Source of the DNA: a virus
IMG/VR virus record: IMGVR_UViG_3300022602_000496
Coordinates: 1 to 20,960 of that record
Direction: 5' to 3' (one strand)
Length of the DNA stretch: 20,960 bases
Positions 284-19,546 of this stretch are shown in pieces (positions within the stretch are counted from its first letter, which is position 1; each line of letters begins with the position of its first letter). The notes under the pieces were generated by a model. That model had not been told where the DNA came from, searched no databases, and was given only the letters and a program-made list of their open reading frames with translations. Made by a program: the position numbers and the translations under genes.

Positions 284-3200
284 ATGGCCAATATTTATTG
301 GGTAGGAGGAACAGGTACTTGGGATACTTCTACAACCACACACTGGGCAAGTTCGTCTGGTGGCACAGGTGGTACTGGAACTGTTCCTACTGCGGCTGAC
401 ACAGTATTCTTTGATAGTGGTTCAGGTGGCACTTATACTGTCACTATGTCAGGCGCTTTGACGTGCCTCAACATCAACATATCTGCTGGCGCGCCCACAT
501 TTACAAGCACAGGTACGCTTACTATTTCTGGTAGTATGAATATTACCAATATAACTCCTACTTGGTCAGCCACTGGACTTATTACATTCATTTCGACAAC
601 TACAGGAAATACAATCACAACAAATGGCACAGCATTTGCTGCTGCATTTACATTTAACGGATCTGGTGGATATTGGACTCTTGGTAGTTCGCTTACAACA
701 ACATCAACAACAGCTTTTACAGTAAACGCAGGAACATTCGATACATCGTCTACAGGTAACTATGCTTTAACTATAGCTGGAACTTTAACGATTTCTAGTT
801 CTGCTACAGCAATATTGAACCTGAATGCATCCACAGTAACTTTGCCCGCAGCAACGCCTTTATCTCTAGGATCAGCGGGAGTATTAAACGCAGGCACATC
901 TCAGATCAACTGTACGTTTAATGGATCTATTTCTTTTAATGGAAACGGCAAAACGTTCTATAACGTTGCATTTCCTACAGCCGTAACAACATCTGCGGTT
1001 TCAACCAATATCTCAGGCCAAAATACGTTTTACAATCTATCATATACTGCACCATCGGTTGTTGGATATAGAATAGCTAGTTTTTCTTCTAACCAGACTA
1101 TCAGCGGCGCTTTAACTACGACAGGCACTGCTGGCAATCAAAGAGTGTGGTTTCAAACTACTGTTTATGGTTTTCAGTTGATATTGACATGTAATAGTGC
1201 AGCATCTTTAACTGATGCCGATTTCAGAGATATCATTGTAAATGGCACAGCTTCTCCTATTTCGGGCACACGTATAGGGGATCTTGGAGGCAATCTGGGT
1301 ATTACAACTTCAACACCAAAAACTGTATATTGGAGTTTAACTGCTGGCGGTAACTGGTCTTCAAATGCTTGGGCAACATCTTCTGGTGGCACACCAGCCG
1401 CTTCAAACTTTCCTCTTGCGCAAGACACCGCAATCATTGACAATACGGGACTGACTACAGGCAATACTATTACATTAGATACTGTTTTTGCGTGGATAGG
1501 CAGTATAGACATGTCTAGCAGAACTAATGCTATGACATTGACAAATACAACAACGCCCATTACTGTATACGGGAACTGGAAAAATAGTTCTGCGGTGACT
1601 GTAGCAGGAACGGCATCATTGACATTTGCTAGTAGAAACACACAATCTGTTACAAGTGCTGGAGTTTCGTTCTCACAAGCAATCAACATTACTTCGTTTG
1701 GTGGATCATTTCTACTAAATGATGCGTTTAGCATATCTTCTGGTGCTAATCCAACATTATCTATTGTGTCGGGAACGTTTGACACTCAGGGATATTCGAT
1801 CAGTGTTCCCACACTTAGCGTGGGTGCATCGAGTACACCCGTGGCTCCTTGTAACGTATATCTTAGATCCAGTACTATAACAGTGACTTATATTTCTGGT
1901 GCAGGATTTAATACTGGTCCATTACTTACAGTTTATCCAGGAACTTCTACTCTTAATATTACCTCTGTTAACTCGTCTCTTACCAACTATGGTAGTGTAA
2001 GCGCGACATTATACAATGTTAGTATGAGCAACGGCGGGCAAGTTATTTCTGGTGCTTTCACCTATAGTGGAACTCTAACACTCAACAATCCCAGTTCTGG
2101 TGGTTATAGATCATACATTATTAGCGGCGGCATACAGACAATCAATACACTATCTGCTAGTGGTTCATCAGCAACAGGAAGAGTGTTTATTTCTGCTTCC
2201 TCGGTATCAGCAAGCCCTACGTCAACTCCAACAGTGTTAAATGTCACTACATTCTCTTCTCCTTCGGATATTGATTTTAGAGATATTACACTAACGGGCG
2301 CAGCCGCAGGAACTTCAGTGACAAGAGGTGGTGATTGTGGAGGTAATAGTGGTATTACATTTCCCGCAGCTAAAACTGTTTACTGGAATCTAACTGGTTC
2401 ACAAACTTGGTTCTCTACTGGATGGGCAACATCTTCTGGTGGTACACCTGCTGCAAATAATATTCCTCTTGGACAAGACACGGCAATCATTGATAATAAT
2501 GGCGCTGCTACAACAATCAACTTTTCAGGCGGGTATATAAGCACATTAGACGTTTCTTCGCGTACAAGTTCGGTGACATTTGCAGGTAGCATTTTCATAA
2601 ATGGAAATCTAAAACTTGGTACAGGTGTAGTATCTCCATCTGCATTTAATCCATACTTTACTGGTCGCAATACAACACAACAGATATTATCCAATGGCAT
2701 ATCAATAAGCGGTGGTGGTAATGGTATCGTTATATTTAATATAAACGGAACTGTTCAACAATCAGATGCATTGAATACTGATCTTCTCACACTCACAAAC
2801 GGTGGATTCAACTCTTCATCATATAACACAACAATAACTACCAGATTCGTAAACACATCAACATCAACTCGTACGTTGAATATGGGATCTGGTACTTGGA
2901 CGTTAGCTGGAACAGGAACAGTTTGGAACACTGCATCAACAGGCTTAACATATTATGCAGGCACATCTACGATTGTTCTATCTGATACATCGACAACAGC
3001 AAGAACATTTACGGGTGGTGGATTTTATTACAATAAACTGACTATTGGTGGTACAACTGGTGTATCCACAACCACTTTGGGTGCTGGAGATACATACGGA
3101 GAACTTGCATCCACAAAAACAGTTTCACATACAATATCATTCAGCACAATATCTGTTGGCAAGTGGTCTGTAACAGGAACGTCAGGAAATCTTGTAACTG

Positions 3201-5476
3201 TCACGGGAACAACACTCACTCTTTTTGGTGATCGTGTATCGGGCGTTGATTATCTGACAATGGGTACGACAGCGATGTCTGCCACTAATCCTGTTGAGTT
3301 TTATGCTGGTGTAAACAGTACAGGCTCTGGTGTTATTCTTACCGCTGCTCCAGCTGCCGTAACAAGATACTGGGTAGGCGGCACAGGAAGCTGGACGGCA
3401 TCTGCGACTGCTAACTGGTCGGCCACATCTGGAGGCGCTGGTGGTGCTTCTGTGCCCACATCCGCTGATACTGTCATATTTAATAGCGCATCAAATGCAA
3501 CCGCATATTCTGTAACACTATCATCGGTAACTCCATTACGCTGCTACAGCTTGTCTGTAAGTGGACCAGCATCTGGTTCATTAGTATTCGCAGGATCTGC
3601 ACAGCTTTGTATCACGCACGACTTTACAATGGCATCTACAGGAATAAGTAGAACATATACCGGTGCGATTACGTTTAGTGGTGCAGGCACAGGTAAAACG
3701 ATCAGTTGTGGACAAACTCTAGCAAGTTCTATTACTTTTGCCACAACAGGTTCATGGTCATTAACTGCCGCTTTGAATATTGGCACATCTACACTGACAA
3801 TAACAAGTGGCACATTCAACACTGCTGGATTTACTTTAACTGGTGCAACTCTGACATTAACATATTCGTCAGGAGCAACAACTCCTATATCATTATCCTT
3901 TGGTGCTTCTGCTATCAATCTAACAACGAGCATCAACTTTACCGGTTCATCTACGACAGTAAATCCTACTAACTTAACGTTCAGTTCTGGTACATCAACT
4001 ATAACAATATCTGGAACAAGTAACGCATTTTATCATGGTGGTCAAACGTTTTATAATGTTGCGTTTACTGATCAGACTTCAGGCATCTCTGTTCCTTTGA
4101 ATCAATCTATTTTTCCTGTAACATTCAACAACTTGACCATGTGGAATCCTGGAACAACAGGATATAAACAGTGTAACATATCGTCTAATATAACTGTGAA
4201 CGGAACTCTGACATTCACACAAGGCACTAATAGTGCATCAAGACGCATATTCTTATTCAGTGGCACATTAGGAACACAGTACACGATTACTGCCGCTTCT
4301 GTATCAAACCTTAATAATATCGACTTTCGCGATATCAAATGTGCTGGTGCCGCTACTTGGTCAGGTACAAGTATTGGAGACTGTGGTGGCAATAGTGGCT
4401 TAACAGCATCAACACCAAAAACTGTATATTGGAGTTTAACTGCTGGTGGTTCTTGGGCAGCTGGTGTTCCTTGGGCAACAAGTTCTGGTGGTACACCTGC
4501 TGATGCTAACTTTCCACTAGCACAAGACACAGCTATTATTCAGAATACTGGATTAAACACATCTTCAACAATCACAATGGACAACATTTGGAATATCGGC
4601 ACAGTCGATATGTCTACAAGAAGCAATACTTGGACTTTTGCTATCAGTAATGGTCCAACACTATATGGAAACTGGTTGTTAAGTTCTGCCACAACATACT
4701 CAGGTTCTGGTCAGTTAACATTCTCAGGTAGAGGCACTCAAACAATAACGAGTGGCGGCGCTTCTTATACTGGCACAAACCAATACATAATAAACTCATT
4801 TTCAGGAACTGTTCAACTTGCGGATGCTTTAGCGATATCGAGTTCTCTAGTTCTTACGTCTGGTACATTTAATGCGGCATCATATAATGTCACTGCTTCA
4901 TTATTCAGTACGGCTGGTTCAAGTTCTAGAACATTGTCTATGGGATCTGGTACATGGTCACTAACATCAAATCCCACACCATGGACAATAACAACTACTA
5001 CAGGGCTTACCTTTAATAAAGGATCAGCAAATATCAACTTAAGTGGTGGCAGCGGCACAAACTTTACTGGTGGTAGTTTGACGTACAATGGACTGTCATT
5101 TGGTGGATCAGGATTTAGTTCAACTAGTGCATTAACTGGAAATAATACATTCTCTGCTATTTCTTCATCTAGAACTGGTATCTGGTCGTTAAATCTGGGC
5201 ACAACCATACAGTCGGTTGGAGCATTTTCTGTCTCTGGATCTTCTGGCAACTTAGTGTCGATTTTTGGCACATCAACCTCAACACCAGCAACTATGGTAT
5301 ATACTGGATCATCAACCGTAAATGTTGATTATATTTCAACATCAAGTCTTCGCGTATATAGTTTAACGAACACTTGGTATGCAGGTACGCACAGTGTAGA
5401 TGGCGGCACTTTAGGATGGATATACGCAGCGATTGCTTCTACTGGAGTTTTGGGACAGTTTTTCTTTTTCTTTTAA
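284..5476 (+). CDS. Giant repetitive Ser/Thr/Gly-rich surface protein (five ~340-residue repeats)
   Basis: This 1730-residue protein has very low charge and is built almost entirely of Ser, Thr, Gly, Ala, Asn and aromatic residues, a composition typical of beta-helical phage fibres or adhesins. Five module starts are visible: YWVGGTGTW near residue 6, TVYWSLTAGGNW at 347, TVYWNLTGSQTW at 697, YWVGGTGSW at 1029 and TVYWSLTAGGSW at 1380. Each is followed by an A/STSSGG(T/A) stretch and then a P..(A)DT.(I/F) motif. The modules at 347, 697 and 1380 are preceded by a DFRDI...GD.GGN.G boundary; the repeats preceding residue 1029 and the C-terminus end instead in a related VDY...(F)YAG form. It ends in five consecutive Phe. 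It lies upstream of the T4-like neck genes, where T4 has baseplate, short-fibre and fibritin genes. I infer a host-binding or capsid/tail decoration role. The specific function is unknown. Start is the ATG 3 bases after the preceding stop. Confidence 0.85.
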   Translation: MANIYWVGGTGTWDTSTTTHWASSSGGTGGTGTVPTAADTVFFDSGSGGTYTVTMSGALTCLNINISAGAPTFTSTGTLTISGSMNITNITPTWSATGLITFISTTTGNTITTNGTAFAAAFTFNGSGGYWTLGSSLTTTSTTAFTVNAGTFDTSSTGNYALTIAGTLTISSSATAILNLNASTVTLPAATPLSLGSAGVLNAGTSQINCTFNGSISFNGNGKTFYNVAFPTAVTTSAVSTNISGQNTFYNLSYTAPSVVGYRIASFSSNQTISGALTTTGTAGNQRVWFQTTVYGFQLILTCNSAASLTDADFRDIIVNGTASPISGTRIGDLGGNLGITTSTPKTVYWSLTAGGNWSSNAWATSSGGTPAASNFPLAQDTAIIDNTGLTTGNTITLDTVFAWIGSIDMSSRTNAMTLTNTTTPITVYGNWKNSSAVTVAGTASLTFASRNTQSVTSAGVSFSQAINITSFGGSFLLNDAFSISSGANPTLSIVSGTFDTQGYSISVPTLSVGASSTPVAPCNVYLRSSTITVTYISGAGFNTGPLLTVYPGTSTLNITSVNSSLTNYGSVSATLYNVSMSNGGQVISGAFTYSGTLTLNNPSSGGYRSYIISGGIQTINTLSASGSSATGRVFISASSVSASPTSTPTVLNVTTFSSPSDIDFRDITLTGAAAGTSVTRGGDCGGNSGITFPAAKTVYWNLTGSQTWFSTGWATSSGGTPAANNIPLGQDTAIIDNNGAATTINFSGGYISTLDVSSRTSSVTFAGSIFINGNLKLGTGVVSPSAFNPYFTGRNTTQQILSNGISISGGGNGIVIFNINGTVQQSDALNTDLLTLTNGGFNSSSYNTTITTRFVNTSTSTRTLNMGSGTWTLAGTGTVWNTASTGLTYYAGTSTIVLSDTSTTARTFTGGGFYYNKLTIGGTTGVSTTTLGAGDTYGELASTKTVSHTISFSTISVGKWSVTGTSGNLVTVTGTTLTLFGDRVSGVDYLTMGTTAMSATNPVEFYAGVNSTGSGVILTAAPAAVTRYWVGGTGSWTASATANWSATSGGAGGASVPTSADTVIFNSASNATAYSVTLSSVTPLRCYSLSVSGPASGSLVFAGSAQLCITHDFTMASTGISRTYTGAITFSGAGTGKTISCGQTLASSITFATTGSWSLTAALNIGTSTLTITSGTFNTAGFTLTGATLTLTYSSGATTPISLSFGASAINLTTSINFTGSSTTVNPTNLTFSSGTSTITISGTSNAFYHGGQTFYNVAFTDQTSGISVPLNQSIFPVTFNNLTMWNPGTTGYKQCNISSNITVNGTLTFTQGTNSASRRIFLFSGTLGTQYTITAASVSNLNNIDFRDIKCAGAATWSGTSIGDCGGNSGLTASTPKTVYWSLTAGGSWAAGVPWATSSGGTPADANFPLAQDTAIIQNTGLNTSSTITMDNIWNIGTVDMSTRSNTWTFAISNGPTLYGNWLLSSATTYSGSGQLTFSGRGTQTITSGGASYTGTNQYIINSFSGTVQLADALAISSSLVLTSGTFNAASYNVTASLFSTAGSSSRTLSMGSGTWSLTSNPTPWTITTTTGLTFNKGSANINLSGGSGTNFTGGSLTYNGLSFGGSGFSSTSALTGNNTFSAISSSRTGIWSLNLGTTIQSVGAFSVSGSSGNLVSIFGTSTSTPATMVYTGSSTVNVDYISTSSLRVYSLTNTWYAGTHSVDGGTLGWIYAAIASTGVLGQFFFFF

Positions 5477-5551: not shown

Positions 5552-8500
5552 ATGTCATCTACTAACTCAACATTCATCGCAAAGAATGGTATCATCGCTA
5601 ATGGCAGTCTAATCTATGCTGTGGGTGGTACGACTAACGTAGGTATCAACAACACTTCTCCCGATGCTGCTCTTACTGTTACTGGTACAGCAAACGTTCA
5701 AGGCAACGTTGTAATCACTGGTACAGTGAATGCTGGTGCAAACGTAAACGTCACTGGTTCTCTTACCTCTACAATCAATGTCAACACTGTTACAGTCTAT
5801 GCGTCAAATGCTAGTGTTGTTGCTGCTGGTAATGTTGTTATCAACTCTTCTGGCGTATCTGTTGCAAATGCTACTGGATCTCTTCTTGTTTCAACTATTG
5901 GAACAACTCAAGGTTTCTCTGCAAACGCATCACTAGTTACACTAGGTAACAGTACCGTAAACACACAGATCAATACAACACACTTCTTTACTGGTAACTC
6001 CACATCATATGGCTTTGGCAACTCAACATATGAAGCTTTAGTTACTGCGACTGGTGGTGTAAATGTCAGTGTATATCTAATCAACTCATCTTCTGCCAAT
6101 GTTGGTAATAGCACAGTTTATGGATATGGCAACTCAGTTGTAGAAGCACTTTATAATCTAACAACAAACACAAGTGGTGTTCTAACCGCATCAAACGTTG
6201 TTATTGGCAACTCAACTGCCAACTCAGTAATCAACTCAACAGCGGTGGTCACATCGATTGTTAATGCAACGGCAAACGTTTCTACCACAACAGTCTATGC
6301 GTCAAATGCTAGTGTTGTTGCTGCTGGTAATGTTGTTATCAACTCTTCTGGCGTATCTGTTGCAAATGCTACAGGCGCATTGCTTATTGGCACAATCGGT
6401 ACTACAAATGGTTTCTCAGCAAATACAACATCAGTTGTATTAGGCAACACGTCTGTCGTTACTACTCTTACTCCAGGGACAATCACAGTAACTGGTCTCG
6501 CCAACGTAGGCAACGTCAATACAACAACTGTAAATGCCACAACGTTGAATGCAACAACAGTCAATGCTAACTTGGTTGGTACCACAGTCACAGCGAATGT
6601 TATTGCGACAACAGTTTCGGCAACAACAGTTACAGCTAACGTTTCTGCTATAGTAGTCAATACTGCTCAGGTAAATGCTACTGCTAATGTCACAGTCGGT
6701 GGTCTATTGAACGTCACAGGCAACTCTACCTTTGGTGCTAACGTTACAATCTCAGGCAATCTATACGTTACTGGTACTACTGTTCAACAAGGCACAACTT
6801 CGGCACAAGGCTCTATTATTCCAAATGCAAATGGTAGTTTGCTATTAGGTAATAGTGGTTTATGGTGGGCTAATATATATGTAGTTAACGTAAACTCAAC
6901 AACAGTGTTTGGCAATCTAAATGCTGGCTTTGTTAATGCGTCGTCAAATGTTTATGTTGGAACAGCAGCGAATAGTGTTGCTGTAAACACAAACACAATC
7001 GTTATTGGTAACGCATCTGTCAATGCTACGATCAACTCAACAACATTTACTGGCACATCAAATAGCGCAAACTTTGTAGGTTCTGTATCAGCCGCTAATG
7101 TTGTATCTAACGCACAACTATCAGCAAATCTAGGAAACTATCAGACAACTGCTGGTCTATCTACAAACGTAGCAACACTTACTGCAAATAACTCAACCAA
7201 CTTCAATGGTCAGCCAGCTAGTTATTATACCAATGCATCAAACATGTCATCTGGTACTTTGCCATATGCACAGCTTCCAACAAACATTGTAAACACAACA
7301 GCCGCTTTCACGATTGCAGGCAATACAACATTCACAGGCAATACTATTGCAAATGGGTTTGTATTCAGCACAACCTCGATTGTTCTAGCAAACGGTGCAT
7401 TGTCTGGTGCTTCTGGCAAAGTTCTAATGTCGAACTCGATCAGTGGTGTTTATTGGGGTACAGTGACAACAAATCCAGGAACAGTCACATCTATTGCTTT
7501 TGCCAATGGCTTGAATGGTGGTACTATCACATCATCGGGCACAGTCTATGTTGCAAATGCGGATAACAGTATTGCAGTATCAGCCACTGGTGTTTCAGTC
7601 AATACAGCATATATTGCAACAACAAATCCTGGCTCATGGGCAAACTCGACCAATGGTTTCACTCTCAATAGTGCTGCTTGGGCTGCTCCAGGTTCTATTG
7701 GTACAACTACAGCAAACACAGCAAACTTTACCACACTAAACGCAGCAAGTCTAAACGTCTCGGGTGGTGCTACTGTTTCTGGTAACTTGACTGTCACTGG
7801 AAATCTAACACTTGCTGGTACTACAACATTCATCAACTCAACTGTTATCACAACAAATGATTTAAATCTTGTACTTGCGAACAGTGCAACAAATGCCATT
7901 ACATCAAACAATGCTGGTATTGTTGTTGGCACATTTGCTAACTTGATTTACAACTCAGCTATTCCTGCATGGCAATCAAACGTTGCGTTTATTCCTGCTG
8001 CGAATAATCTAAATCTAGGCAACACAAGCTTTGTATGGAATCTTTATGCTAACAATATTTCTGGTAATGGCGCTAGTGTAACGAGTGTAAATGCAGTACA
8101 GCTTGGTGGTGTTTCATTAGGAACTGTCAATACAGCTATCACAAGCAATGCTTCGGCAGCTTACACAAACGCAACATCATATGCAGCAACTATTGCAGCT
8201 ACCGCATTCACAAATGCTGTTGCTAATGCTGTCGCGAATACAAGCCAAGCTTATGCAAACTCAACAAACGGCTTAGGTATTAGTGGTACAGCAGCGAATG
8301 CTACTTTGTTTGCTGGATATTCTTGGGCTTCTCCTGCTGCTATTGGTGGTACTACCGCAAACTCTGGTATATTCACTACTGTTACGGCAACAGATCCCGG
8401 CTCTGGTACATCTGGTGCGTTTGTCCTTAGAACAAATACTTCAAATACTGCTATTATTCAAGTTGTTAATAATAACAATCAGGCGCAGTATTCATACATG

Positions 8501-9100
8501 CAAGCCAACTCTTCTGGTTGGTGGAACTGGACTGCAAACGCTTCATTCACAGGAAACGTTTCTGTATCTGGATCTTTTGTTGGTTCTGGTTCAGGGCTAA
8601 CTGGTACAGGACTATCATTTACTGCTGGTACTGCAAACAATGCAACAAATCTCGGTGGTGTTGCGGCTGCAAGCTATGTCAACACTTCAGGCAACTACAC
8701 AATCTCTGGTAACCACGCATTCACTGGTGGAGGCACAACAGTCAGCTATGGTGCTGGTTCATATGCAGTTGGCTATAGGGATATTCCACAGAATATTCAG
8801 AATACAAGCTATACAACCGCAGCATCAGATTCTGGTGGTCATATCTTCAATGCAGCCAATACAGGAACTTTGACATACACTATTGCCAATAACGCCACAG
8901 TTGCTTGGGCGAATGGTGCTGCTATCAGCATAATCAATGGCAATACTGCCACACTTACGATTGCTGGTGCGGGTAACGTTACAATCCAGTTAGCGGGAAC
9001 TACAACAACAGGAAGCAGAACTCTAGTTGCTGGTGCAACTGCAACTTGTATTCGTGTTGCTGTTGATAGATGGTTTGTTGGTGGAGCAGGAGTATCATAA
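5552..9100 (+). CDS. Fibre-like repetitive structural protein, Asn/Thr/Val-rich
   Basis: The 1182-residue product begins MSSTNSTFIAKNGIIANGSL and is dominated by short beta-strand-like repeats such as NATTVNA, TGTANV, VVIGNAS and INSTTFTG, with almost no charged residues over long stretches. The C-terminal ~110 residues (from about GYRDIPQNIQNTSYT) are different. They contain SGGHIFN, an IPANA-like strand pattern and a TTGSRTLVAGATATCIRVA stretch, which resembles a C-terminal domain found in many phage tail proteins. A shaft followed by a tip domain is therefore likely, and I infer a tail fibre or fibritin/whisker-like role. Residues 81-108 and 247-274 are encoded by an identical 83-bp DNA repeat. 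The start has an exceptional Shine-Dalgarno and a late promoter. The stop at 9100 is one base before the next ATG, suggesting coupled translation. Confidence 0.85.
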   Translation: MSSTNSTFIAKNGIIANGSLIYAVGGTTNVGINNTSPDAALTVTGTANVQGNVVITGTVNAGANVNVTGSLTSTINVNTVTVYASNASVVAAGNVVINSSGVSVANATGSLLVSTIGTTQGFSANASLVTLGNSTVNTQINTTHFFTGNSTSYGFGNSTYEALVTATGGVNVSVYLINSSSANVGNSTVYGYGNSVVEALYNLTTNTSGVLTASNVVIGNSTANSVINSTAVVTSIVNATANVSTTTVYASNASVVAAGNVVINSSGVSVANATGALLIGTIGTTNGFSANTTSVVLGNTSVVTTLTPGTITVTGLANVGNVNTTTVNATTLNATTVNANLVGTTVTANVIATTVSATTVTANVSAIVVNTAQVNATANVTVGGLLNVTGNSTFGANVTISGNLYVTGTTVQQGTTSAQGSIIPNANGSLLLGNSGLWWANIYVVNVNSTTVFGNLNAGFVNASSNVYVGTAANSVAVNTNTIVIGNASVNATINSTTFTGTSNSANFVGSVSAANVVSNAQLSANLGNYQTTAGLSTNVATLTANNSTNFNGQPASYYTNASNMSSGTLPYAQLPTNIVNTTAAFTIAGNTTFTGNTIANGFVFSTTSIVLANGALSGASGKVLMSNSISGVYWGTVTTNPGTVTSIAFANGLNGGTITSSGTVYVANADNSIAVSATGVSVNTAYIATTNPGSWANSTNGFTLNSAAWAAPGSIGTTTANTANFTTLNAASLNVSGGATVSGNLTVTGNLTLAGTTTFINSTVITTNDLNLVLANSATNAITSNNAGIVVGTFANLIYNSAIPAWQSNVAFIPAANNLNLGNTSFVWNLYANNISGNGASVTSVNAVQLGGVSLGTVNTAITSNASAAYTNATSYAATIAATAFTNAVANAVANTSQAYANSTNGLGISGTAANATLFAGYSWASPAAIGGTTANSGIFTTVTATDPGSGTSGAFVLRTNTSNTAIIQVVNNNNQAQYSYMQANSSGWWNWTANASFTGNVSVSGSFVGSGSGLTGTGLSFTAGTANNATNLGGVAAASYVNTSGNYTISGNHAFTGGGTTVSYGAGSYAVGYRDIPQNIQNTSYTTAASDSGGHIFNAANTGTLTYTIANNATVAWANGAAISIINGNTATLTIAGAGNVTIQLAGTTTTGSRTLVAGATATCIRVAVDRWFVGGAGVS
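5792..5874 (+). repeat. 83-bp direct repeat, copy 1
   Basis: This stretch is base-for-base identical to 6290-6372. It lies inside the fibre-like gene in the same reading frame; the copies are 498 bp (166 codons) apart. It encodes residues around VYASNASVVAAGNVVINSSG. Confidence 0.9.
6290..6372 (+). repeat. 83-bp direct repeat, copy 2
   Basis: Identical partner of the copy at 5792-5874. The identity ends sharply on both sides (T versus A at each flank), although the protein-level repeat continues with synonymous and conservative changes. Confidence 0.9.
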
Positions 9101-10961: not shown

Positions 10962-11681
10962 TTGCCCACCAACTTCTTCTTCAGGAACAGCGATTACAAT
11001 CCTGAGCAGAATCTGCTACAGAATCTAGCAGACGAAATGATTCAGATTTTTGGTATCGATTGCTATTATCTTCCGAGAACAACAAACTATATTGATAAGT
11101 TATTTGATGAAGCACCAACGTCTTCATTTAACGTGGCTATTCCACTTGAAATGTATATTAATGATTATGAAGGTTTCCAAGGTGAAGGCGATCTACTCAG
11201 CAAGTTCGGGCTAAACGTAGCAGACAAACTTACACTATCGGTGAGTCGTCGTAGGTTCGCACAAGACATTGGTAGCATATACAACTTGATTCGCCCACAA
11301 GAAGGTGATCTTGTTTACTTTCCATTCACAACTGGTATTTTTGAAATCAAGTTCGTTGAACATGAAAGATCCTTCTACCAGACTGGATCGCTACAATACT
11401 TTGAGTTGCAGCTAGAGAAGTTCAACTACGATTCGGAACAGTTCAACACTGGCATCGCAAACATCGATTCGATCCAACAGAACTATTCAGTGGCAGACAG
11501 TAACTTCTGGTATCTCACCGAAGCAAGTTACGATCTTATTACCGAAGCTGGTTATGATATTGTCAACGAAACTTTTGTTCTAGATGAAATCGATCCATCA
11601 ACACAGAATGAAGAGTTTGTAGCTTTGGCAAACACCTTCGTGGACTGGTCGGTTACTAATCCATTTGGGAACGACATTTAG
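10962..11681 (+). CDS. 14: gp14-like neck protein (TTG start)
   Basis: The 239-residue product is the gp14-type neck protein, which completes the head-tail connector together with gp13. The start is TTG: no ATG is available near the expected N-terminus, while TTG at 10962 is preceded by AAAGGAAAAG and gives MPTNFFFRNSDYNPEQNLLQ, matching the N-terminal style of gp14 proteins in T4-like phages. Further support comes from DEMIQIFGIDCYYLPR, VADKLTLSVSRRRF and RPQEGDLVYFP. The C-terminus (FVDWSVTNPFGNDI) also looks complete, so the adjoining endonuclease insertion did not truncate it. T4 gp14 is about 256 residues. The stop at 11679-11681 overlaps, tail to tail, the stop of the antisense homing endonuclease gene. 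Confidence 0.88.
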   Translation: MPTNFFFRNSDYNPEQNLLQNLADEMIQIFGIDCYYLPRTTNYIDKLFDEAPTSSFNVAIPLEMYINDYEGFQGEGDLLSKFGLNVADKLTLSVSRRRFAQDIGSIYNLIRPQEGDLVYFPFTTGIFEIKFVEHERSFYQTGSLQYFELQLEKFNYDSEQFNTGIANIDSIQQNYSVADSNFWYLTEASYDLITEAGYDIVNETFVLDEIDPSTQNEEFVALANTFVDWSVTNPFGNDI

Positions 11682-12406
11682 ATTTTGTGCTTTCTAGCAA
11701 AGTGCATAGGAAAGCCACATCTGGCCATTTCTTTTCTACACAAAACACAAGAGACTCTATGTTTGTTTCTATCTGCCGAAGCTGCTTTCCATTCGTCTGT
11801 GCATCTTGCCTTTGCTTTTTCTGACAAACGTTCGCGTAGTTCTTGATTATTCATTGCTTCTTTTGTTCCTATAGATATACTATTCTTTTCGTCATTTGTT
11901 CTAGGAACTTTATATCTATCGTTTTCCTCTCGTGATTTGGGATTTACTCTATATTTCATAAATCTTTTTCTGCAATTTTCCTTTTCTTCTTCTGATTTAT
12001 TAGACCATCTGATTGAAGCTTCGCTTGACATCTTAGACAATCTTTCCACAGTAAAACTATTTCTTTGTTTTTGTTTTGTTTCTTCTGAAAGTTTATAACC
12101 ACCAGAATTTCTCCAACGAATGTTGGATATCGCTTCATTTATATACATAGGACTTACATCTACATTGAAGTGTTTGTGTAGATAAGATTCGTGATTTATA
12201 GCAGATTCTCTTGTATCAAATATTTTTATGATTTTGGTTTTGAAAAATGAAGGATTTCGCTTCATCTCTTCAATCCAAACTTTCTTGTGTTTTTTTGATG
12301 TAACGGTTCCATGATATCCACTATTGATTTTGGATATCGTGCTGTAACCGATATAGAACGGAGGAAGTTTGTTGCCAATATAAATAGTAATATATGTACA
12401 ATACAT
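11678..12406 (-). CDS. GIY-YIG homing endonuclease, antisense between gp14 and gp15
   Basis: The 242-residue product starts MYCTYITIYIGNKLPPFYIG, a GIY-YIG family beginning typical of free-standing phage endonucleases. The motif pair is YIT at 5-7 and YIG at 18-20, followed by GYHGTVTSKK, with the likely catalytic Glu in NHESYLH (E73). The arginine that follows YIG in I-TevI is not evident. Residues ~102-120 (GGYKLSEETKQKQRNS) form a NUMOD3-like DNA-binding segment. The C-terminus has a C-x2-C...H-x4-H pattern (C220, C223, H235, H240) that could be a zinc finger. It is the only convincing minus-strand gene in the window. It has AAGGAG 7 bases before its ATG and its own late promoter at 12471-12478. 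GIY-YIG enzymes cut a target site in endonuclease-free relatives and spread by recombination; the target is presumably the gp14-gp15 region. Confidence 0.88.
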   Translation of the reverse strand: MYCTYITIYIGNKLPPFYIGYSTISKINSGYHGTVTSKKHKKVWIEEMKRNPSFFKTKIIKIFDTRESAINHESYLHKHFNVDVSPMYINEAISNIRWRNSGGYKLSEETKQKQRNSFTVERLSKMSSEASIRWSNKSEEEKENCRKRFMKYRVNPKSREENDRYKVPRTNDEKNSISIGTKEAMNNQELRERLSEKAKARCTDEWKAASADRNKHRVSCVLCRKEMARCGFPMHFARKHKI

Positions 12407-13518: not shown

Positions 13519-13956
13519 ATGAACATAGCGAATAATCAAATCATTTCACAAAAACTAGGCCTTAGCCCAATGAACGACTCGGTTGGGTTTCCGACAAAGA
13601 AGTTGCCTACACAGGCTATTCTTGTTCAAGACGAATCGCAAACCAATGCAGAGAACGATTACGACTTTGCGCGTAAGAATCTCTATGACATCATCGAAGC
13701 TGGTCAGGAAGCACTCACAGACATGCTGGAGTTCGCAAAGCAGTCTCAGTCGGCATCTGCATACGAAGTTGTTGGCACACTGGTGAATGGCTTGGTGACA
13801 GCTAACCAGAAGCTATTGAACTTAAGCAAGCAAGTCAAAGAGATCCAGAAGATGGACAAAACACCAGAAGAAGCAGAAAAGACTACTGGTAATGTAACTA
13901 ACAACCTATTTGTGGGAACAACCGCTGAGTTGCACAAACTGCTCAAAGGTGAATAA
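13519..13956 (+). CDS. 16: Terminase small subunit, gp16-like
   Basis: The 145-residue product is a T4-type small terminase, the ring-forming subunit that recognises or regulates DNA packaging and stimulates the gp17 ATPase. The central helical segment is characteristic: ARKNLYDIIEAGQEALTDML followed by EFAKQSQSASAYEVVGTLVN and a coiled-coil-forming VTANQKLLNLSKQVKEIQKM. T4 gp16 is 164 residues. It lies directly between gp15 and gp17, as in T4. The stop overlaps the start of the large terminase gene in a TAATG, so the two subunits are translationally coupled. Confidence 0.9.
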   Translation: MNIANNQIISQKLGLSPMNDSVGFPTKKLPTQAILVQDESQTNAENDYDFARKNLYDIIEAGQEALTDMLEFAKQSQSASAYEVVGTLVNGLVTANQKLLNLSKQVKEIQKMDKTPEEAEKTTGNVTNNLFVGTTAELHKLLKGE

Positions 13957-14837
13957 TGGCAGAATACTATAATAATAACCAAAATCTAAAAGCCGTCAAC
14001 GTTCCTGTTGAGTGGGATTTAGATAAGGTAAAAGAGTTTAAAAGATGTGCTGAAGATCAGATTTACTTTATTAAAACATACTGTAAGATTGTTAGTGTTG
14101 ACGACGGTCTAATCAACTTCAATCTTTGGCCATTTCAGGAGAATATGGTCAATACATTTGAGACAAATCGTTTCTCTATTTGTAAACTGCTTCGTCAGTG
14201 CGGTAAGACAACTACAGTTTGCGCTTACATGCTGCATAAACTTCTTTTCAATAAAAACTATGCTATTGCTATTCTTGCCAACAAAGACATGCAGGCACGA
14301 GAAATCCTTAACCGTGTGAAGTTGATGTTTGAACATCTTCCCAACTGGTTACAGCAAGGCGTGAAGCGTTGGAATGAAGGCGACATTGAACTAGAGAACG
14401 GATCAAAGGCACTTGCATCAGCCACCGGTGGTTCTGCTGTTCGTGGTAAGACGTTCTCACTTCTATATCTTGATGAGTTTGCGTTCGTTCCTAACAACAT
14501 TCAAGAATCATTCTTCGCTTCAGTTTATCCTACGATCACTTCAGGTAAGACAACTAAAGTTATCATCACTTCAACACCGAATGGGATGAACCTATTCTAT
14601 AAGTTGTGGTCCGATTCGGAACAAGGGCGTAACACATACGTTCGCTGCTCTGTTAACTGGAGAGACGTTCCTGGTCGTGACGAAGCATTCAAAGATGAAT
14701 ATATCAAAAACACCAGTGAACGTCAGTGGAGACAGGAATTTGAATGTGTTGCAGAAGAAACTATGATAGATGTCTACGATACAACAACAAATGAATATAT
14801 GTGCATTCCTATAAGTCAACTATATAATACACTTTGA
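13956..14837 (+). CDS. 17: Large terminase N-terminal half (ATPase) fused to split-intein N-fragment
   Basis: Residues 1-263 are the ATPase domain of gp17, the DNA packaging motor. Walker A is RQCGKTT (80-86), Walker B with catalytic Glu is LLYLDEFAF (169-177), and the coupling motif is ITSTPNG (204-210). The ATPase half ends with SERQWRQEFE. From Cys264 the sequence is no longer terminase. CVAEETMIDVYDTTTNEYMC, then IPISQLYNTL and a TGA, is a 30-residue intein block A (Cys nucleophile, D/E-T-M-I, and the eLy-like end). No terminase nuclease domain follows in this gene; it is found in the gene at 15429. The protein can only become a full motor by trans-splicing. It starts in a TAATG overlap with gp16. 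Confidence 0.9.
   Translation: MAEYYNNNQNLKAVNVPVEWDLDKVKEFKRCAEDQIYFIKTYCKIVSVDDGLINFNLWPFQENMVNTFETNRFSICKLLRQCGKTTTVCAYMLHKLLFNKNYAIAILANKDMQAREILNRVKLMFEHLPNWLQQGVKRWNEGDIELENGSKALASATGGSAVRGKTFSLLYLDEFAFVPNNIQESFFASVYPTITSGKTTKVIITSTPNGMNLFYKLWSDSEQGRNTYVRCSVNWRDVPGRDEAFKDEYIKNTSERQWRQEFECVAEETMIDVYDTTTNEYMCIPISQLYNTL
14745..14834 (+). other. Split intein N-fragment (30 residues)
   Basis: This segment runs from Cys264 to Leu293 of the upstream terminase gene and holds intein block A only. The split before block B, with an N-part this short, is the atypical design. Classical split inteins (DnaE type) break near the endonuclease position after ~100 residues. Extein residue -1 is Glu (EFE junction). 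Confidence 0.87.
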
Positions 14838-14855
14838 GATAGAGTTTCTTGGTTT

Positions 14856-14863
14856 TATAAATA
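14856..14863 (+). promoter_or_regulatory. T4-type late promoter (TATAAATA) for the HNH gene
   Basis: An exact TATAAATA lies 21 bases upstream of the HNH ATG, directly after the intein N-fragment stop. The surrounding 15 bases (TTTTATAAATACAAT, 14853-14867) are identical to those at the gp18 promoter. TAGGAG at 14873-14878 is the ribosome binding site. The same transcript would also cover the intein C-fragment gene. Confidence 0.82.
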
Positions 14864-14884
14864 CAATAGAACTAGGAGATTTTT

Positions 14885-15439
14885 ATGCATAGAAAAATAT
14901 ATGAAAAAGAGTATGGTCCTATTCCGAGAGATACAGAAGGTAGATCATATGAAATACATCATGTTGATGGTAACCATGCCAATAATGATATCATGAATCT
15001 TACTTGCGTGAGTATACAAGAACACTATGATATACACTATTCGCAGGGTGACTATGGCGCTTGTGTAATGATAGCAAAACGAATGGGTATGTCTCCGACA
15101 TATATTAGTGATATACAAAAAGGTAAGAAAAGACCTGGTGTTGGCGGTGTAAAAAAGGGAACCACACCTTGGAATAAAGGCATCAGTGGATATTCTTTAC
15201 CTAAAGCAAGTGAAGCAAAGAGAGGTAAAGTTTATCACAGCAAACTTGGTGAAAATGTTGACGCTATACTTGAACTATACAACACTAGACCATATATTGA
15301 TGGAGTGGGTAAAGTTCAAAAGAATGGTAAAGTTTTATCATATGAACAAGCATTTAGTAAAAAGTATGCAGAAGAATATGGCGTAACATCTGCATGTATT
15401 AGAAAACTAGTAACAGGTAAAAGTTTCAGTGCAGTATAA
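14885..15439 (+). CDS. HNH homing endonuclease inside the split terminase
   Basis: This is a 184-residue free-standing HNH nuclease. The HNH core is SYEIHHVDGNHANNDIMNLT (H25, H26, N34) with H47 and H51 in QEHYDIHY. Residues ~70-115 hold an SPTYISDIQKGKK segment and a KKGTTPWNKG NUMOD3-like motif. The C-terminus (EYGVTSACIRKLVTGKSF) looks like a helix-turn-helix DNA-binding end. It lacks intein splicing blocks, so it is a separate gene and not an intein domain. It has its own late promoter and a clear ribosome binding site. Its 3' end overlaps the intein C-fragment gene by 11 bases in another frame. It probably cuts the intein-free gp17 allele and so drives spread of the split intein, as proposed for other fractured genes. 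It is more AT-rich than the terminase exons, consistent with separate origin. Confidence 0.9.
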   Translation: MHRKIYEKEYGPIPRDTEGRSYEIHHVDGNHANNDIMNLTCVSIQEHYDIHYSQGDYGACVMIAKRMGMSPTYISDIQKGKKRPGVGGVKKGTTPWNKGISGYSLPKASEAKRGKVYHSKLGENVDAILELYNTRPYIDGVGKVQKNGKVLSYEQAFSKKYAEEYGVTSACIRKLVTGKSFSAV

Positions 15440-15746
15440 AGAAAACACAAGATACAGAATAAAAACTCCTTTAGGATATAAAGATTTTTCTGGTGTGGTG
15501 TCAAAAACTACAGATACTTTGATTCGCTTTGATTTTGATGATACGTTTATTAGAGTATCACCTAAACATGTCTTTTTGACAGATAGTGGATTTTCTTTTG
15601 CAAAAGATTTGTCAATAGGACAAACAATAACTGGGAAAAAAATATCTAAGATTACGCTACTTACAGAAGGACCATATATAGTTTATGATCCAGTAGGCGT
15701 TGAAGAATCTGAAACATACTACTCTAATGATGTTGTGTCACACAAT
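15429..15746 (+). other. Split intein C-fragment (106 residues)
   Basis: This holds intein blocks B, F and G and ends with His105-Asn106, the residues that carry out branch resolution by Asn cyclisation. With the 30-residue N-part it totals 136 residues, a typical minimal intein without an endonuclease domain. The general pattern (TP.G...FSG, YYSNDVVSHN, EFLG) resembles the AceL-TerL intein C-part as I remember it. Confidence 0.87.
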
Positions 15747-16574
15747 ACAGAGTTCCTTGGTTCATCTAATACACTGATTGATGGTAACAAACTAGCACAG
15801 CTTACCTACATTGATCCTATTCTAACAAACAATGATGTTGATATGTATGAGGACGTGAATGAAAGTCGCGTCTATGCTACTGTGGTTGATACATCCCGTG
15901 GTTCTGGTATCGATTATTCTGCATTCATTGTGTTTGACATCACAGACGTACCATATCGAGTGGTAGCAAAATATCGTAATAATGAAATCGAATCTTTGGT
16001 TTATCCTACGATCATCTACAACGTGTCGCGACATTACAATGATGCATATGTTCTAGTTGAAATCAATGACGTTGGCCAACAGGTGGTGGACATTCTACAG
16101 CACGATCTAGAATATGAAAACGTACTATCAACAAAGACTAAAGGTCGCGCTGGCCAGAAGATCGGCGGCACTATGGGCGGTGTTCGTTTTGCTATGGGTG
16201 TTCGTACCACAACACAAGTCAAGCGTATTGGTTGTGCCAACTTTAAGAGTTTGGTTGAGAATGATAAGCTGATAATCAATGACTATGATCTTCTTCAAGA
16301 AATGTATCGCTTTGTTGAACACAATGCAAAGTATCAAGCCGAAGAAGGAAGTCATGATGACCTTGTTATGTGCTGCGTTCTGTTCTCTTGGTTAGTACAT
16401 CAAGACTATTTCAAAGAACTAAGCAACAACGATGCAAGACTTGAAGTTTTGGCCAACAATCAGAGACTTATTGAAGAAAATCTTGTGCCATTTGGTTATG
16501 TTGATGAAGCATGGGAAGATCCCAATGCAGGTGATGATTTCGAATCGTCATTCAGACAGTGGTTGATGATGTAG
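15429..16574 (+). CDS. 17: Split-intein C-fragment fused to large terminase C-terminal half (nuclease)
   Basis: Residues 1-106 are the intein C-fragment and residues 107-381 the gp17 nuclease domain. The intein part shows block B (FIRVSPKHVF, with Ser replacing the usual Thr of TxxH), the SFAKDLSIGQTITG stretch that follows it, block F (EGPYIVYDPVGVEESETYYS) and block G ending VVSHN with Thr107 as +1 nucleophile. The terminase part starts TEFLGSSNTLIDGNKL and carries the RNase H-like nuclease acids D154 (VVDTSRGSGIDYSAF), E211 (YVLVEIND) and D310-D311 (HDDLVM). The start is GTG, with a weak AGG upstream inside the HNH gene, so expression probably relies on coupling to HNH translation. After splicing the extein would be 263 + 275 = 538 residues (T4 gp17 is 610). 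Confidence 0.9.
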   Translation: MQYKENTRYRIKTPLGYKDFSGVVSKTTDTLIRFDFDDTFIRVSPKHVFLTDSGFSFAKDLSIGQTITGKKISKITLLTEGPYIVYDPVGVEESETYYSNDVVSHNTEFLGSSNTLIDGNKLAQLTYIDPILTNNDVDMYEDVNESRVYATVVDTSRGSGIDYSAFIVFDITDVPYRVVAKYRNNEIESLVYPTIIYNVSRHYNDAYVLVEINDVGQQVVDILQHDLEYENVLSTKTKGRAGQKIGGTMGGVRFAMGVRTTTQVKRIGCANFKSLVENDKLIINDYDLLQEMYRFVEHNAKYQAEEGSHDDLVMCCVLFSWLVHQDYFKELSNNDARLEVLANNQRLIEENLVPFGYVDEAWEDPNAGDDFESSFRQWLMM

Positions 16575-18988: not shown

Positions 18989-19546
18989 ATGACCTTTAGC
19001 GTTAACGATATTAAATCAAATCTAACTGGGGGCGGCGCTAGACAGTCGCTCTTCAGTGTTCAGTTCAACAATCCAGGAAATCCTCTTGCAGATAGGAAGA
19101 TGCCTTTCATGATAAAGGCATCTTCTATTCCAGAAGCAAGACTAGGAAACATTCAAGTTCCTTATTTTGGTCGTAAGATTAATCTTGCGGGTGACCGTAC
19201 ATATGCGGATTGGACAGTAACCGTAATCAATGATGAAGACTTTTTAGTCCGCAATGCTATGGAAGATTGGTCAAATAAAATCAATAGTTTTCAAGGCAAC
19301 TTAAGAACTATAGCGGGAGGATCATCATCACCACTTGCATACAAAGCAGATGCTACTGTTACGCAATATAGCAAGACAGGCGCGGCTATTCGCCAATATA
19401 CTTTTCATGGTATCTATCCTGCTGATATTTCTGCAATCGATCTAGACTGGAACACAACAGATCAGATCGAAGAGTTCCGCGTAACATTCATGTACGATTG
19501 GTGGGAGGTCAAACCCGGTCCAACAGGCAATGCTGGCGGTAACTAA
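18989..19546 (+). CDS. 19: Tail tube protein, gp19-like
   Basis: The 185-residue product builds the inner tail tube. Typical gp19 features are SVQFNNPGNPLADRKMPFMI, KASSIPEARLGNIQVPYFGR, KINLAGDRTYADWTVTVIND and the C-terminal FMYDWWEVKP. T4 gp19 is 163 residues. The start at 18989 has TAGGAG upstream and no separate late promoter is evident, so it is probably co-transcribed with gp18. A perfect 12-bp stem hairpin lies inside the coding sequence at 19096-19125. Confidence 0.93.
   Translation: MTFSVNDIKSNLTGGGARQSLFSVQFNNPGNPLADRKMPFMIKASSIPEARLGNIQVPYFGRKINLAGDRTYADWTVTVINDEDFLVRNAMEDWSNKINSFQGNLRTIAGGSSSPLAYKADATVTQYSKTGAAIRQYTFHGIYPADISAIDLDWNTTDQIEEFRVTFMYDWWEVKPGPTGNAGGN
19096..19125 (+). 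repeat. Perfect inverted repeat (12-bp stem, 6-base loop) inside gp19
   Basis: GAAGATGCCTTT, loop CATGAT, then AAAGGCATCTTC. All 12 pairs match. It spans codons 36-46, about 107 bases after the start. There is no U-run after it, so it is not an intrinsic terminator. Confidence 0.85.

Follow-up and report, generated by a model that had tools for sequence, protein, structure and literature searches.

The terminase gene terL was found in two pieces in a 20.96-kb stretch of viral DNA (IMG/VR record IMGVR_UViG_3300022602_000496, positions 1 to 20,960; record G000), referred to below as the window. The window is a fragment of a T4-like phage and carries genes for neck proteins, the tail sheath stabiliser, terS, terL, the sheath, the tube and the portal. 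Both terL pieces and all that lies between them are read from the plus strand. A first open reading frame (ORF) of 293 residues (13956-14837) encodes a T4-type terminase ATPase domain, the 263-residue N-extein (13956-14744; PF03237, E = 5e-25; phrog_5989, E = 2e-63). This ends in RQEFE and is followed by the 30-residue N-terminal part of an intein, IntN (14745-14837, with 14745-14834 coding), which begins with Cys1, so that the sequence runs EFE/CVAEETMIDVYDTTTNEYMCIPISQLYNTL up to a TGA stop (slashes mark splice junctions). After a spacer of 47 nt comes the gene of a free-standing HNH homing endonuclease of 184 residues (14885-15439; HNH_3, PF13392, E = 7e-12, above the cut-off). The second terL ORF (15429-16574) has a GTG start that overlaps the HNH stop by 11 nt. 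It opens with the 106-residue C-terminal intein part, IntC (15429-15746), which ends in VSHN/T, and continues into the terminase nuclease domain, a C-extein of 275 residues (15747-16574; PF17289, E = 6e-15) that starts TEFLGSS and thus has Thr at position +1. An earlier note on this DNA had all these coordinates and junctions of the split terminase genes right, and its ligated product of ~538 residues is borne out by the sum of the exteins (263 + 275).

The same split, stop codon, HNH gene and IntC were present in nine further IMG/VR contigs from different metagenomes. This agreement rules out that the stop at 14835 or the HNH region is an assembly artefact, which the earlier note had left as a way to be wrong. 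The joined exteins matched the intein-free allele of L012, EFETEFLGSS, exactly at the junction. A second terL was not seen in six related records, all of which are fragments. Between 13500 and 16700 no Rfam intron family was matched at E values up to 1, that is, no group I or group II intron core RNA was found, and the reading of the insert as an intron was rejected for this reason.

IntC is related to the solved TerL intein Cat, both by sequence (CatC chain of 6dsl, phmmer E = 1.7e-9) and by predicted fold: the best PDB match of an AlphaFold2 model of IntC alone (pLDDT 79) was 6dsl, with a TM-score of 0.85, and other inteins came next. A PDB search with the 30-residue IntN of the window itself gave nothing useful. 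The link to CatN came through the relative L139, with matches to CatC (5e-53) and CatN (7e-8). As the CatN chain of 6dsl starts with the N-extein residues EFE, the insertion site is common to the window and the Cat family. In an alignment of ten members the invariant positions of IntC were Thr-Pro, Gly, Ser44 and His47 of block B, and the terminal Ser-His-Asn; Cys1 and a Thr were invariant when the window IntN was aligned with nine relatives. PMC11766414 gives IntN and IntC lengths and nucleophiles (residues 1 and +1) of 25/104 and Cys/Cys for AceL, 37/115 and Ser/Cys for GOS, and lengths of 30/104 for Cat. With AceL-TerL, GOS-TerL and Cat-TerL the window shares the terL host gene, the EFE/ site, a short IntN (25-37 residues) and a long IntC (104-115 residues) on separate genes, the Ser/His of block B, the His-Asn end and the fold of 6dsl, and with AceL also Cys1. 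Its IntC is ~33-38% identical to Cat-like members. Unlike these three it has Thr+1 where they have Cys+1, a trait that does not define the family, since both residues occur in its wider membership. The window intein thus belongs to the AceL/GOS/Cat family of atypically split TerL inteins and lies at the AceL/Cat-type site (EFE/C...HN/xEFLG), in agreement with the likeness to AceL pointed out in the earlier note.

The endonuclease between the two halves has an intact HNH domain (residues 2-77). It is of I-TevIII type, with 60% identity to intron-associated endonuclease 3 over residues 3-77. Residues 83-184 form a conserved C-terminal module, which recurs in members that carry a GIY-YIG nuclease domain instead; the Cat-like L139 is a GIY-YIG relative of this kind. 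L146 has a Thr+1 intein like that of the window but a GIY-YIG enzyme, and judged by sequence the two loci are a natural swap of the nuclease domain at one site. This exchange of HNH and GIY-YIG domains on one conserved C-terminal module is, as far as sequence comparison goes, a new observation. In the members measured the end of the endonuclease gene runs 8-17 nt past the start of IntC, which suggests that translation of the two is coupled.

The spacer between IntN and the endonuclease gene holds three further features. At 14833-14854, including the IntN stop in another frame, lies a copy of the uninterrupted terL homing site: the spacer sequence TTTGAGATAGAGTTTCTTGGTT agrees with the joined site TTTGAA/ACAGAGTTCCTTGGTT at 19 of 22 positions, above all of 300 shuffles. 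It is followed by a T4-type late promoter, TATAAATA (14856-14863), which stands at the same place in most relatives. An 18-bp RNA hairpin (14841-14883) is predicted to pair the copy and the promoter with the Shine-Dalgarno sequence AGGAG of the HNH gene (14874-14878). Its z-score was -4.0, none of 200 shuffles being as stable, and -5.5 with other ends. The window contains six sites of the sequence TATAAATA against 1.3 expected (5512, 10930, 12379, 14856 and 16593 on the plus strand, 12478 on the minus strand), several of them just upstream of structural genes. The endonuclease I-TevI of T4 represses itself through a homing-site-like operator (15/20) at its own late promoter, and a hairpin that is unable to form on late messages masks its ribosome-binding site (PMC2988022). 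All three features, a site copy, a late promoter and a hairpin that covers the ribosome-binding site with the promoter inside it, are present in the window. The copy would tie the endonuclease to the insertion site of the intein and is a putative operator.

A survey of all fetched loci yielded 137 split members, among which 53 were independent (<90% insert identity) and 4 of these 53 were isolates. The 49 independent environmental members were scored for the site copy; ten had been used in first noticing it and 39 were found after the prediction. Within the insert of ~1 kb the best match to the site lay at the IntN stop in 36 of the 39 later members, with 1.5 expected, and in 45 of the 49 overall, counts that are only indicative because the members share ancestry and their independence is overstated. 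In 27 of those 36, TATAAATA stood at the same distance. When the target was shifted along terL the effect fell to background beyond ~15 nt, and the copy was found to extend from -6 to +16. More telling than these counts is the persistence of the copy in members between which synonymous sites are nearly saturated. A conserved homing-site copy abutting a late promoter in the spacer between IntN and endonuclease appears to be new. A literature search combining intein, operator and late promoter returned T4 reviews, in which no intein work was recognised, the primary papers on AceL-TerL, GOS-TerL, Cat and fractured genes being outside its coverage.

The copy could also be a neutral relic of the entry of a cassette into the intein gene, for instance a captured piece of terL, with no operator function. 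It keeps the first two positions of the target codons but varies at the third, the pattern expected of a stretch that was once coding, and the IntN stop codon within it would fit an insertion scar. Its reading frame is inconsistent, however, with 26 of 45 copies off the endonuclease frame, and its distance to the late promoter is fixed. Its retention in nearly all scored members despite the near-saturation noted above, and its pairwise identity of 0.63 against 0.42 upstream and 0.47 at third positions, argue for constraint. In addition the +1 codon of the copy follows that of the target: 24 of the 26 members with Cys+1 have TGY there, against 0 of the 19 with Thr+1. A relic without function is therefore considered unlikely, although it is the alternative that survives best. 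The hairpin was likewise rejected as the sole cause of the conservation, as it is strong in some relatives only (z below -2 in 12 of 44).

The whole insert measures 1002 nt (14745-15746). That of contig L014 differs from it by a single base (99.9% identity), while gp15 and terS of the two are 77% and 87% identical. Identity to L014 climbs towards the insert, with 91.6% and then 97.5% in the successive halves of the N-extein and 96.8% immediately to the right. Divergence declines gradually from ~25 to 1 differences per 100 nt over ~1 kb, with the insert at the centre. In L008-L010 the backbone of flanking genes is mostly 94-99% identical to the window, terL is contiguous and the site is empty; the N-terminal half of their terL is 73-83% identical to that of the window, and to the right of the site differences are dense over ~200 nt. 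On a TerL tree the presence of the intein requires at least six changes. The window TerL is placed beside the intein-free L008 and L012, whereas its IntC groups with L130, L131, L134 and L146, so that the two groupings differ. Sister alleles of which one is occupied and the other empty are seen more than once (window/L008, L142/L088, L044/L045). Homing with co-conversion, in which the endonuclease would make the cut, is expected to leave just such mosaic identity and empty alleles. The combination of a near-identical insert, divergent flanks and an empty-site relative would be new evidence for mobility of this element. Neither these signs of homing nor the site copy, promoter and hairpin of the spacer had been remarked on in the earlier note.

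Ordinary recombination or a chimeric contig, with no homing driven by an endonuclease, might produce a similar mosaic, given that T4-like phages recombine freely and that L014 is a single 4.5-kb contig. The gradual fall in divergence centred on the insert, the recurrence of occupied and empty sister alleles and the presence of a copy of exactly this site with the endonuclease gene all speak against it, and we regard this explanation as improbable.

Mosaicism and further endonucleases were also seen elsewhere in these records. At 11678-12406 on the minus strand, between the neck gene and gp15, the window has another putative homing endonuclease that is free-standing (phrog_10820, phrog_314). 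It is absent from L014, in which the neck stop adjoins the gp15 start, so this site is polymorphic too; the gp15 ORF beside it in the window has an odd extended N-terminus. L008 has ~283 extra bases without a long ORF between terS and terL (3929-4211) relative to the window, and at the intein site its terL has the residues EFCCEFL. The tail tube gene (18989-19546 in the window) is only 68.5% and 87% identical in L007 and L008, while the adjoining portal gene is 98-99.5% identical, which marks another mosaic boundary.

With respect to splicing, the residue set of a class-1 intein is complete (Cys1, block-B His, the His-Asn end and Thr+1) and the predicted model of IntC has the HINT fold. IntN and IntC are under purifying selection in the relatives, for example with nonsynonymous rates (dN) of 0.04-0.19 against synonymous rates (dS) of 0.7-1.6 for IntN. 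These ratios are rough, since dS is near saturation, and were taken from relatives, the block being nearly invariant in the window's own population. On these grounds trans-splicing of the TerL halves is very likely. Since the intein that divides terL is of the atypically split kind and lies at an AceL/Cat-type site, DNA packaging probably depends on this splicing. The halves might instead assemble unspliced as separate polypeptides. The split lies close to where the ATPase domain gives way to the nuclease domain, and such assembly has a precedent, cited in PMC10448857, in the ribonucleotide reductase of phage Aeh1, whose gene was left in pieces by an endonuclease insertion. Absence of splicing would nevertheless be hard to reconcile with the retention of all splicing residues and the fold, with the purifying selection or with exteins that join to the intein-free sequence, and is judged very improbable. 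The distinct chemistry that the earlier note had proposed from Thr+1 and the block-B Ser is scarcely tenable: although the characterised TerL inteins listed in PMC11766414 have Cys+1, Thr+1 recurs in 19 of 45 independent members tallied and in intein-free terL alleles such as that of L012, the Ser is invariant in the ten aligned members and present in Cat, and the same paper counts the Cys1/Thr+1 pairing as 12% of inteins, so that the chemistry of the window is ordinary. The +1 Thr is probably the host's own residue, since L012 has it without an intein.

Elements of this kind are already known from isolated phages. Split TerL inteins at the same site occur in Aeromonas PX29, Providencia PSTRCR_127, Serratia 92A1 and Vibrio VP-1, with the endonuclease between the halves or fused to them; in PX29 the genes 17A and 17B are annotated 'N-intein' and 'GIY-YIG endonuclease and C-intein'. 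These differ from the window in Cys+1 and in overlapping or fused ORFs, and no copy of the homing site was found in them. A second group, in Yersinia phiR1-RT, Escherichia PD112, PspYZU05, JK32 and Thanatos-2, is inserted at the Walker B site (IDE/C AFIPNF). It has the same order (TerL-N with IntN, endonuclease, IntC with TerL-C) in overlapping ORFs, but a different endonuclease and neither spacer promoter nor site copy. The rarity and the special value of genomic context claimed in the earlier note were thus overstated, as complete isolate genomes carry split TerL inteins at the same or the second site. The terL of Vibrio phage VP-1 (L116) apparently has two inteins: the first is contiguous and follows Walker A (QSGK/C...HN/TTVVAA), and the second is split, sits at the EFE-type site and has an IntN to which a GIY-YIG domain is fused. 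In Campylobacter phage CP81 (L113) the TerL gene starts with an IntC (SHN/CAFID) and the N-terminal half is absent from the adjacent genes; the missing partner may lie at another place in the genome. 'Fractured genes', which Dassa and colleagues are said to have described in 2009, reportedly consist of a split intein whose two genes have a free-standing homing endonuclease gene between them, and the window agrees with this definition. They are said to have canonical split sites and another nuclease family, and the operator arrangement is not known to be a feature of them. The window resembles I-TevIII in its HNH domain and I-TevI in its homing-site-like operator at a late promoter and its hairpin over the ribosome-binding site (PMC2988022). 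Unlike the introns of I-TevI and I-TevIII in T4, its endonuclease belongs to a split intein and has a stop that overlaps the start of half of an essential gene.

Taken together, the locus is best read as a composite mobile element in terL, made up of an atypically split class-1 intein and a free-standing HNH endonuclease with I-TevI-like regulation, for which we estimate a probability of about 0.83. The ATPase half with its 30-residue IntN and the nuclease half with its 106-residue IntC would be made separately and bind, after which trans-splicing through Cys1, the block-B His, the terminal His-Asn and Thr+1 would give the packaging motor of 538 residues. The HNH protein would recognise the uninterrupted terL site by its C-terminal module and cut it in co-infecting phages without the intein. 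Repair would then copy the whole block with co-conversion of the flanks, a movement that the natural alleles support. The site copy beside the late promoter would serve as an operator through which the HNH protein represses its own synthesis. On read-through messages the hairpin would hide the HNH ribosome-binding site, while late messages, which would start within the hairpin, could not form it. The overlap of the HNH stop and IntC start would couple translation of IntC-TerL-C to that of the endonuclease.

Several points weigh against this reading. Repression of the late promoter by the endonuclease could leave too little TerL-C, for which read-through from an upstream late promoter offers one possible answer. 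Outside its own population, the nearest relatives of the window share only 30-56% identity with it in IntN and IntC. The contig L014 ends ~160 nt past the insert and may be a chimera. To these are added the common ancestry of the members, the confinement of a strong hairpin to some of them and the failure to find the site copy in the isolates.

A wider version of the proposal extends to the family. Here the free-standing endonucleases of environmental TerL split inteins, with HNH or GIY-YIG domains on a common recognition module, would be autorepressed through the conserved copy of their homing site beside a late promoter, the atypical position of the split would have been set when a cassette of operator, late promoter and endonuclease entered a contiguous intein gene, and half of an essential gene would have come under the element's own promoter and translation. 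The split position is ascribed to cassette entry because the IntN stop lies in or beside the operator copy. We lean only slightly towards this extension.

Outside the terminase region the window contains two very long repetitive ORFs rich in Thr, Ser and Asn (284-5476 and 5552-9100; 1730 and 1182 residues), which resemble fibres or adhesins; the C-terminus of the first is FFFFF.

Starting from one split intein, the analysis arrives at 53 independent loci that form a family and whose proposed mechanism can be tested. Their sequences point to the endonuclease that mobilises an atypically split intein and to the DNA it would read, with a tolerance at third codon positions, and suggest a possible reason for the atypical position of the split. 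They include a natural Thr+1 branch of split inteins with a short IntN, of use for protein ligation, and natural occupied, empty and converted alleles that are available for a phage homing assay. By analogy with I-TevI, they indicate that its regulatory logic may operate outside introns.

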